A stretch of DNA of 64,000 nucleotides from Sebaldella termitidis ATCC 33386 (GTDB taxonomy: Bacteria > Fusobacteriota > Fusobacteriia > Fusobacteriales > Leptotrichiaceae). Below the pieces are notes generated by a model that was not told the DNA's origin, ran no database searches, and worked only from the letters and a program-made list of their open reading frames with translations. How positions within the stretch are numbered: the stretch's first letter is position 1; the number at the start of each line of letters is the position of its first letter. The position numbers were made by a program, and so were the translations under genes. Of the stretch, positions 17,116 through 33,908 are shown in pieces. Location of the stretch: the NCBI RefSeq assembly GCF_000024405.1, contig NC_013517.1:3317989-3381988 (forward strand). Direction: 5' to 3'.

Positions 17116-17231
17116 GCTTGGCGAAGACCTATATTCCCTAGAAGTAAATCTAAGTATTGTCGGCGCAAACAGGCTTAACTACCAGGTTCGAAATGTATCT
17201 GGGTGTACCTCTGTCGCTATGTTCACCAAGC
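17116..17231 (-). rRNA. rrf: 5S ribosomal RNA
   Basis: About 116 bases. The ends CTTGGTGA and CGCCAAG pair as helix I. The internal CGAACCTGG and GTTAAGCCTG segments are typical of 5S. It is the last gene of the minus-strand rRNA operon. Confidence 0.93.
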
Positions 17232-17248
17232 AAGGATTGTCTTAAAAA

Positions 17249-17275
17249 GACAATGAGAAATAAATAGTAGGATAG
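17249..17275 (-). other. 3' arm of the 23S precursor processing stem
   Basis: This 23S-5S spacer sequence is complementary over about 26 bases to the 16S-23S spacer at 20260-20285 (GACAATGAGAAATRAATAGTAGG on opposite strands). The 23S precursor therefore folds into a long stem for RNase III or Mini-III cutting. Confidence 0.75.
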
Positions 17276-17311
17276 ATATCCATCAGTAAAAACGGTATAT
17301 ATTTTTTAAAA

Positions 17312-20238
<2,927 letters not shown>

Positions 20239-20361
20239 TCTTTTTTACTTTCTTTCTTTCTACCTACTATTCATTTCTCATTGTCCAATTTTAACACTTT
20301 TAGTTGATTGTTCAAGGAACAATCAAAATAAAAGAAGAAGCTGCCATCTTATTTCTCCTTA
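20239..20361 (-). other. 16S-23S spacer without tRNA
   Basis: Only about 120 bases. It contains the 5' arm of the 23S stem (20260-20285), a GATTGTTC/GAACAATC hairpin near 20307-20325, and 20325-20341, which pairs with the 16S leader at 21919-21935. No tRNA fits in it. Confidence 0.75.
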
Positions 20362-21877
<1,516 letters not shown>

Positions 21878-31035: not shown

Positions 31036-31040
31036 AAATA

Positions 31041-31092
31041 AAAACTGCCTTAAAATACAAAAGCTTTATTTTGTTTTAAGGCAGTTTTTTTT
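31041..31092. terminator. Bidirectional terminator between the GNAT and antiporter genes
   Basis: AAAACTGCCTTAAAA (31041-31055) pairs with TTTTAAGGCAGTTTT (31074-31088). A- and T-runs on both sides let it work in both directions. Confidence 0.85.
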
Positions 31093-31107: not shown

Positions 31108-32283
31108 CTACTCCAGAAGCTTTTTATACGACAGACTCATGGCTAATGCTCCTGCAGGTGCTGTAATAATAATTGCCAGCACTGCTATAGCAAGTATCAG
31201 ATCCCCGGAAGCCACTCCCGCTGCAAGCGGTATTCCGCCTACAGCGGCCTGTACAGTAGCTTTAGGGATATATGCCAGAATGCAGAACAATCTTTCTTTT
31301 ATATTCAGATTACTTCCAATTGTAGAAATATAAACACCTGCACTTCTTCCTGCAAGTCCTGCGAGAATTATCAAAAAACCGGTAAGTCCGGCATTCAGAG
31401 CTACATGTATATTTACCTGGGCTCCGACCAGAACAAAAAGCAGCAGTTCGGCAAAAACCCATATTTTATTGAATTTTTTTGACAAACGCTCTGCTGCTTC
31501 CGGAAGTTTTTCCAATATAACAACTCCGACTGTCATTACTCCAATAAGCGAAGCAATCTCTACTTTATCATGAAGAAAATTCTCCATACCCTTTAAAAAA
31601 ATGGAAATAGACAATATAATCAGTACTTTTTTAGTATCCCTTATATGAAATTTCCTGAAAATTCTTACCAGTATCAGTCCCGCACCTATTCCCACAGCTA
31701 TCCCAAGAATTATGGACAAAGGAATTCCCAAAAGCTGGAAAACAGGGTTTACACTGCTTCCTCCATAAAGTCCCAGAAATACAGTAAATAATGTTATTGC
31801 AAAAACATCATCTGCTGAGGCTCCTGCCAGTATAATCGTAGAAATTCCTTTTTTCATTCCTATTCCTTTTTCTGAAAGAAATATCATAAAAGGCACTACT
31901 ACTGCCGGTGATACAGCAGCAATTATAAATCCCAGCATCCCGCCTTCCACAAATGAAAATCCCAGCAGCTTCATTGATAAGAATGCAATGGTAAATCCTT
32001 CTATAAGTCCGGGAATACAGGAGAATTTCACTGCAAGCGGACCGACCTTTTTCAGTTCATTTCTGTTAATGCCAAGACCTGCTCTTAATAAAATTATTAT
32101 TAGTGCAATTGTTCGCAGTTCTCCAGATATTTCAATAAGATTTTTATCAAGAATATTAAAGCCGTAAGGTCCTGCTGCTGCCCCGAGAATAATCATTCCC
32201 AAAAAACCCGGTAATTTTAATTTTGTAAATATGTAATTCAGCAGTAATCCTGCCAAAACTATAAATGCCATACTAAGTGCCAT
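31108..32283 (-). CDS. Cation/proton antiporter (CPA family)
   Basis: 391 residues and about 12 membrane segments. I chose the ATG at 32283 because GGGAGGCGG lies upstream; the longer frame runs into the leader RNA. The transport-site acidic pair appears as GASADDVFAITLF (~165-177). LPGFLGMIILGAAAGP near the N-terminus and GRSAGVYISTI near 310 are typical of CPA antiporters. It would export Na+, K+ or, given the leader, possibly help in fluoride resistance. It is controlled by a structured leader (32301-32405) that overlaps a terminator and is described separately. Confidence 0.85.
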   Translation of the reverse strand: MALSMAFIVLAGLLLNYIFTKLKLPGFLGMIILGAAAGPYGFNILDKNLIEISGELRTIALIIILLRAGLGINRNELKKVGPLAVKFSCIPGLIEGFTIAFLSMKLLGFSFVEGGMLGFIIAAVSPAVVVPFMIFLSEKGIGMKKGISTIILAGASADDVFAITLFTVFLGLYGGSSVNPVFQLLGIPLSIILGIAVGIGAGLILVRIFRKFHIRDTKKVLIILSISIFLKGMENFLHDKVEIASLIGVMTVGVVILEKLPEAAERLSKKFNKIWVFAELLLFVLVGAQVNIHVALNAGLTGFLIILAGLAGRSAGVYISTIGSNLNIKERLFCILAYIPKATVQAAVGGIPLAAGVASGDLILAIAVLAIIITAPAGALAMSLSYKKLLE

Positions 32284-32300
32284 AGTATTATCCGCCTCCC

Positions 32301-32405
32301 GTAGAAAAATAAAAAATAGCTTCCACAACAAAAAAACGCTGCAGAAGCTATTAACATGAAAAACATGTGGTTCCGGCATACACCGCGGAGAGCTTCATCT
32401 CCTTA
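32301..32405 (-). promoter_or_regulatory. Candidate riboswitch, variant fluoride (crcB)-like, with overlapping terminator
   Basis: On the minus strand GGAG (32399-32402) can pair with CUCC (32387-32390) as a pseudoknot. GAAGC (32392-32396) can pair with GCUUC (32344-32348) as P1, and ACAUG/CAUGU forms P2. The fluoride-aptamer order GGxGAU, P1, xUCxCC, AACC, P2, UxAUx, P1', U is kept, but UGAUG reads UAAUA and a CGG/CCG hairpin is inserted before AACC. The P1' strand also forms a terminator, AATAGCTTC (32344-32352) with GAAGCTATT (32315-32323), followed by TTTTTATTTTT. The two folds exclude each other, so ligand binding would switch the gene on. Confidence 0.6.
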
Positions 32406-32418
32406 AGTTTACTGTTCT

Positions 32419-32447
32419 AATATATCATATCCGAATTTAAAATACAA
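32419..32447 (-). promoter_or_regulatory. Promoter of the antiporter leader
   Basis: TTGTAT (32442-32447), a 17-base spacer and TATATT (32419-32424) on the minus strand. Transcription would start about 10 bases before the aptamer-like fold. Confidence 0.65.
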
Positions 32448-32460
32448 ATAAATTTTGAAG

Positions 32461-33264
32461 CTATGTCTTTTCCTTATACATTATCGGTATGAACTTTGCT
32501 GCAAATTTATATTTATCACGATTCTTTATATAAAGAAGCCCGAATATGGAAAAAACAACAGCCCCTATAAAATTTACTATAAGATCTTTCATTGTATCAA
32601 TAATGCCTATATCCAGATATCCGCCTTTTATTACTGTTTTTGTCAGGTTATTTTCATCATTGCCCGAATATATCTCTGTATATTTAATATTTCTGATTAC
32701 TACAGGTATATTCTTTCCTTCGGGCTCCAGCTCAACAGTGGAAATCACCTGTACTATACGGTCTTTCTGCATATCAGTTTTAAGATACCGGTCTGCCGAG
32801 AATTCAAAAAATTCCCAGAGCACGCCAATTGTCATAGAAAAACAAAATGCTACAAGAGCCACAAAAATCGGTGACATTTTTATATAAAATTCTTCACTCC
32901 TGTTTAGAATATCTATAAGTGAAAATCCTATTGCAGCACAGAGAAAACCGTTTATAGTGTGAAGCATGGTATCCCAGTACGGAAATAATCCGTAAAAATT
33001 ATGTATCTCTCCGAGTATCTCTGCCGAAAATATAAACAATACCACTATACTCTCCAATAATGTAGGAAACTGAACCATCAGCCTTTTTTTTATTATACTC
33101 GGTATTAAAAAAAGTATCAAAGTCAGTATACACATAAATACACTGTGCCAGTCCTGTAGAAATATCTCCCTTATCATTGTTGCCACCACAATTACTCTGA
33201 GTACTATATATATTGTCAGTTTAGTCTTTTTCTTATTCATCACTTTCTTTTTCAATTTTATCAC
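32461..33264 (-). CDS. Multi-pass membrane protein of unknown function
   Basis: About 265 residues with hydrophobic segments at about 18-38, 42-58, 70-90, 100-122, 132-155 and 228-250. The motif GLFPYWDTMLHTINGFLCAAIGF (about 92-114), with its Asp and His in a membrane segment, recalls the DUF2238/YjdF-type membrane proteins, but I am not certain. A soluble loop lies at about 165-225. The start is a GTG at 33264 or TTG at 33255, after CGGAG. It is transcribed toward the antiporter promoter and may share no transcript with it. Confidence 0.65.
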   Translation of the reverse strand: MIKLKKKVMNKKKTKLTIYIVLRVIVVATMIREIFLQDWHSVFMCILTLILFLIPSIIKKRLMVQFPTLLESIVVLFIFSAEILGEIHNFYGLFPYWDTMLHTINGFLCAAIGFSLIDILNRSEEFYIKMSPIFVALVAFCFSMTIGVLWEFFEFSADRYLKTDMQKDRIVQVISTVELEPEGKNIPVVIRNIKYTEIYSGNDENNLTKTVIKGGYLDIGIIDTMKDLIVNFIGAVVFSIFGLLYIKNRDKYKFAAKFIPIMYKEKT

Positions 33265-33371: not shown

Positions 33372-33908
33372 TTATTGTAAAGTTCTGTTATTATAGCTGA
33401 GAACAGCTGTATAAGAAGCTATTTCATAATACTTTTCCCCGATTCTCACTTCCACAAGAGGAAGGTCTGTTCTCACCTGATAATTCGGATTTATGAGAGT
33501 CTTATTTCCTTTATGATAACACGCAAGTATCTGCCCTTTATTTCCGCTGATAGCTCCTTCTACAGTAAGTCTCAGTCCCATTTCACCTATCCACATACTT
33601 TTTTCTTTTTTACATCTTGTTATTTTCCTGTTTGCCGCAAGCTCTTCTCTTATTTCTGTCAAAATTTCCCTGTATTTTTCTTCCGGATTATCAATTACAG
33701 TATTGCTTTTATTTTCCAAAAGATATATTTTCTGATCTAAACCTACCTCAAAAATATAATCAGGATTCAGACTCTCCCCAGCTGCGATAAGCCTTGTCCC
33801 GGGAATATACGCAATAAACTCCGCTGTATCTCCTACCATTTCTGTCCCTGTTTTTCTGCCGCATGATACAAACAGTAAAAATACAAATAAAAAATATATT
33901 TTTTTCAT
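33372..33908 (-). CDS. Lipoprotein of unknown function (178 aa)
   Basis: A lipoprotein signal peptide is clear: MKKIYFLFVFLLFVSCG, with the lipobox Cys at residue 16. The mature part (about 162 residues) has no recognised family; it is mixed alpha/beta with a helical middle (YREILTEIREELAANRK) and three further cysteines or aromatic clusters. It is probably anchored in the inner or outer membrane facing the periplasm. It lies just upstream of the DUF2238-like membrane protein on the same strand (107-base gap), so the two may be co-transcribed. Confidence 0.75.
   Translation of the reverse strand: MKKIYFLFVFLLFVSCGRKTGTEMVGDTAEFIAYIPGTRLIAAGESLNPDYIFEVGLDQKIYLLENKSNTVIDNPEEKYREILTEIREELAANRKITRCKKEKSMWIGEMGLRLTVEGAISGNKGQILACYHKGNKTLINPNYQVRTDLPLVEVRIGEKYYEIASYTAVLSYNNRTLQ

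Follow-up and report, generated by a model that had tools for sequence, protein, structure and literature searches.

A probable fluoride riboswitch with a UAAUA core upstream of a CPA-type antiporter gene in Sebaldella termitidis

The window analysed here, a stretch of 64,000 nucleotides from Sebaldella termitidis ATCC 33386 (contig NC_013517.1), carries on its minus strand a gene for a CPA-type antiporter of 391 amino acids (31108–32283). The protein belongs to the Na+/H+ exchanger family, and the longer version of its open reading frame matches PF00999 with an E-value of 7.2e-46. This longer frame starts at 32379 and overlaps the aptamer described below; that start is probably not the true one. 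Translation most likely begins at the ATG at 32283–32281, a position that is placed by a Shine-Dalgarno ribosome-binding site, GGGAGG (32295–32300, minus strand), and by a homologue from the same genus with an 86% identical protein. The aptamer ends 59 nt before this start codon. Upstream of the aptamer, a possible promoter can be read from the sequence at 32419–32447 on the minus strand (TTGTAT, a 17-nt spacer and TATATT, with a TG one base upstream of the latter as in extended –10 promoters). Its putative –35 element is weak, matching at only 3 of 6 positions, and for this reason the promoter is absent from the output of the promoter scan.

Two open reading frames on the minus strand lie upstream of the riboswitch (32461–33264 and 33372–33908). 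No Pfam family was found for either of them; the first resembles a membrane protein and the second a lipoprotein (MKKIYFLFVFLLFVSCG). At the other end, a near-perfect inverted repeat (AAAACUGCCUUAAAA...UUUUAAGGCAGUUUU; 31039–31090, positions 205–256 of L002) separates the convergent ends of the antiporter gene and a GNAT gene, and is probably a two-way terminator. Matches of this repeat to miRNA families were set aside as chance. The window also holds a complete rRNA operon (16S, 23S and 5S; 17116–21876, minus strand).

The candidate fluoride aptamer core occupies 32343–32402 on the minus strand. Read from 32402 to 32343, its strands follow in the order GGAG-AU-GAAGC-U-CUCC, CGGU-GUAU-GCCG, AACC, ACAUG-UUUUU-CAUGU, UAAUA, GCUUC and U. 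P1 is formed by GGAG (32402–32399) with CUCC (32390–32387), and its 5' strand is followed by AU (32398–32397). The pseudoknot joins GAAGC(U) (32396–32391) to (A)GCUUC (32349–32344). Between P1 and the AACC joining segment (32372–32369), which was placed by sequence and by the RF01734 alignment, stands an inserted hairpin of CGGU (32385–32382) with GCCG (32377–32374), which is supported by covariation among Sebaldella copies. The P2 hairpin, ACAUG (32368–32364) with CAUGU (32358–32354), is predicted by folding and its pairing is retained in relatives. It leads into UAAUA (32353–32349), which the RF01734 alignment sets against the family consensus UGAUG. In the published numbering, the conserved U38, A40, U41 and U48 are all in place at 32353, 32351, 32350 and 32343 (PMC8752731, PMC11077080), so that A40 faces the closing U48 as the linchpin pair. 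P1, P2 and a pseudoknot of 5–6 bp thus stand in the correct order with all pairs formed, and relatives keep them with compensatory changes. The preliminary description of this DNA had recognised the fluoride-aptamer order with its P1 and pseudoknot pairings intact, and every element could indeed be located on the minus strand.

An intrinsic terminator (32305–32352, minus strand) follows. A terminator scan gives a 16-pair stem of 32352–32337 with 32330–32315 and a U run at 32314–32305, and the fold has an energy of –20.7 kcal/mol with a z-score of –7.4. The terminator starts within the UAAUA element and takes the 3' strand of the pseudoknot, the stretch in common being 32352–32344. Both terminator strands named in the preliminary description (32315–32323 with 32344–32352) are correct, but the real stem is longer than the one described. 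Its proposal that a CPA antiporter lies under an aptamer with an overlapping terminator is also supported.

The Infernal search that the preliminary description had proposed gives 32402–32343 a score of 33.5 bits with RF01734 (E = 1.2e-07), 0.5 bit short of the gathering cut-off of 34 bits. Automatic annotation at that cut-off therefore misses the aptamer. No other of the 4227 Rfam families scored credibly at this position. A second model (R1), trained on 28 aptamers from other genera within the phylum and run over the whole window, scored the aptamer at 39.4 bits (E = 2.5e-06), with 13 bits for the runner-up; the aptamer is far above chance. The shortfall against the Rfam threshold probably arises because RF01734 is weighted towards G at two positions that vary and towards a short joint between P1 and AACC.

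A score slightly below the family cut-off could also point to a fluoride riboswitch that has degenerated and lost its function, leaving a plain terminator or a constitutive leader. We consider this very improbable, since the published key positions (P1, the pseudoknot, A40, U41 and U48) are intact and the same-genus homologue with the 86% identical protein still has the aptamer, whose hairpin shows compensatory changes. In each of the four aligned Sebaldella copies, the complete structure forms with its 18 pairs intact; P1 is invariant among these copies and variable in relatives, where its pairing is mostly retained. In the 28 relatives, 98.8% of pseudoknot cells are paired, and two of its pairs show changes on both sides. 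The comparison of homologous leaders, likewise suggested beforehand, thus yielded compensatory changes in the hairpin, the pseudoknot and other stems.

The inserted hairpin had been singled out as a departure from the fluoride aptamer. It is present before AACC as described; it is not odd, being usual in Fusobacteriota. The joint between P1 and AACC is short in 12 of 50 Fusobacteriota aptamers and longer in the rest, nearly all of which could form a hairpin. At three of the hairpin's four pairs both bases vary between the four Sebaldella copies, and all remain paired. Shuffling the joint segment, one sequence at a time, gave a mean stem of 4.9 against 3.1 in shuffled segments, a weak test because the segments are short, and one in which the parser set the segment bounds wrongly in a few sequences. 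Stronger support for the hairpin comes from the compensatory changes.

Matches to RF01734 occur in 50 of 100 genomes, mostly of the same order (Fusobacteriota); two weak matches in relatives (L057, L058) were left out, as they lack the core. Downstream of the 50 parsed aptamers lie 42 PF00999 genes, three CLC genes and one gene each for crcB, enolase, NUDIX and GGGtGRT. Moreover, Na+/H+ antiporters are the second most common genes under fluoride riboswitches, after exporters (PMC11139923). This agrees with the earlier statement that fluoride aptamers precede CPA antiporters, crcB and other fluoride genes. A fluoride aptamer lies immediately upstream of 15 of the 19 homologues of this antiporter from 40 relatives, and the other four have no riboswitch; the antiporter gene is therefore not always under fluoride control. 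In a Sebaldella sp. metagenome-assembled genome (L044/L140), a fluoride aptamer sharing the UAAUA core lies upstream of a NUDIX hydrolase gene rather than of an exporter or antiporter gene.

The S. termitidis genome holds a second copy of the motif, which scores 35.7 bits with RF01734 and so lies above the cut-off. Its core is the same as that of the antiporter copy (GGAGAUGAAGCUCUCC ... UAAUAGCUUCUGCAG), and a terminator of the same kind follows. This copy lies upstream of a CLC protein with the sequence GNNLI, taken here as the signature of CLC-F fluoride exporters. The genome's other CLC has GSGIP at that position, and no RF01734 match was found with it. A crcB protein is absent from the genome. 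As one sensor sequence precedes both genes, it would control the likely fluoride exporter of this genome together with the antiporter. A third RF01734 match (L003, 19.6 bits) falls inside the end of an alcohol-dehydrogenase-like reading frame and was read as chance, as were the remaining matches in this genome, at 10–14 bits.

The preliminary description regarded UAAUA as a variant of a conserved core, with changes that might alter ligand preference. Two positions do deviate from the Rfam consensus, G39 and G42, both of which are A in this aptamer, and the downstream gene belongs to a cation/proton antiporter family; an aptamer for a different ion (Na+ or Li+, for instance) would suit such a gene. 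G39 and G42 are consensus bases and not defining ones, as both vary among accepted RF01734 members. The step from UGAUG to UAAUA comprises two separate changes, each of them common. Position 39 is split evenly between A and G (25 each) in the 50 Fusobacteriota aptamers, among them those with the highest scores, and A39 is present in the Bacillus cereus riboswitch, a proven fluoride responder (PMC8752731). Position 42 is A in 11 of the 50. It pairs with position 13, as UG in 36 aptamers, UA in 11 and CG in three, and the pair is broken in none of them; an unguided consensus fold of the 28 relatives also contains it. NMR of the B. cereus aptamer identified a U-G wobble in the pseudoknot stem (U12·G39 in that study's own numbering; PMC8004769). 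The pair is U-A in this aptamer: A42 turns the wobble into a U-A pair, and so the pair is kept and no contact is removed.

The UAAUA core is also widespread. When 84,980 species were scanned with a pattern that left the two G and the third upstream base free, 88 matches were returned, 83 of them with a full four-pair P1, spread over many bacterial phyla and two archaeal records. A hairpin resembling the inserted one was present in 21 of these aptamers by a simple criterion. The 81 reading frames downstream include 16 antiporters, 12 crcB genes, two CLC genes and two enolases, and the exact core also precedes crcB in another Fusobacteriaceae genome. With 83 structurally intact aptamers carrying it, the view of UAAUA as an unusual core is not supported. 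Furthermore, the ligand contacts Mg2+, and through it backbone phosphates, rather than bases (PMC8752731), and the proposed search for Na+-sensing models found no Na+ or Li+ riboswitch family among Rfam matches up to E = 10, nor any other ion-sensing riboswitch family among the Rfam matches. Because an identical core precedes CLC-F in this genome and crcB elsewhere, we reject an altered ligand specificity as very improbable.

As a separate observation from the same scan, nine of the 81 reading frames match Dynamin_N (PF00350) and three match DUF6062 (loci L073, L075, L089, L092, L117, L126, L131 and L136, read from the starts of the frames). We know of no published link between dynamin-like GTPases and fluoride.

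Taken as a whole, the locus very probably encodes a fluoride riboswitch of the crcB motif (RF01734) acting as a transcriptional ON switch before the antiporter gene. Judged by its sequence, the aptamer is an ordinary member of this known class that lies just below the threshold. The claim rests directly on the aptamer anatomy, the terminator overlap, the near-cut-off score, the pairing across relatives and the gene context, and from there we infer the identity of the ligand at the antiporter copy, the direction of control and the role of the antiporter. The missing 0.5 bit, the weak –35 element and the four homologues without a riboswitch count against it.

When fluoride is absent, the nascent RNA would fold into the long terminator, which takes up GCUUC, and transcription would end ahead of the antiporter gene. 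When fluoride is present, bound via backbone-associated Mg2+ ions, the A-U linchpin and the pseudoknot would lock, the terminator would be blocked and the antiporter could be produced. In the B. cereus switch, fluoride locks the docked form via A40-U48 and so stops the terminator (PMC8752731, PMC11077080), and for the crcB motif the ligand is predicted to relieve overlapping terminators (PMC2864571). The ON direction should, by analogy, be expected here. It had been suggested before that the ligand blocks the terminator and turns expression on, and the anatomy, in which pseudoknot and terminator compete for one strand, is consistent with this. The antiporter most likely offsets the acid load and ion stress caused by HF entry; antiporters under fluoride riboswitches have been explained by pH homeostasis after such entry (PMC11139923). 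It is improbable, though conceivable, that the antiporter clade with the riboswitch in 15 of 19 homologues serves fluoride stress specifically, perhaps transporting fluoride or HF-linked protons itself, and is not a general Na+/H+ antiporter.

When comparing this switch with the crcB-type switch of B. cereus, both share P1, the pseudoknot, AACC, P2, U38-A39-A40-U41 and the A40-U48 linchpin, as well as a terminator that uses the pseudoknot strand. Whereas the B. cereus type has U-G at 13-42, the S. termitidis aptamer has U-A, and it carries the extra hairpin between P1 and AACC; both features are common in relatives. There is no notable difference from the Fusobacteriota fluoride riboswitches that precede CPA genes (42 of 50), with which it shares the aptamer form, the overlapping terminator and the gene family. 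With the Na+ and Li+ riboswitches found before cation transporter genes (for example PMC9646797) it has antiporter control in common, whereas their Rfam families have no match here. No new principle follows from this locus. G39 and G42, which look fixed in the Rfam consensus, vary freely among fluoride switches, as does the distance from P1 to AACC, and the model cut-off therefore excludes probable true members, this aptamer among them. The locus also strengthens the case for antiporters as a main target of regulation by fluoride in Fusobacteriota.
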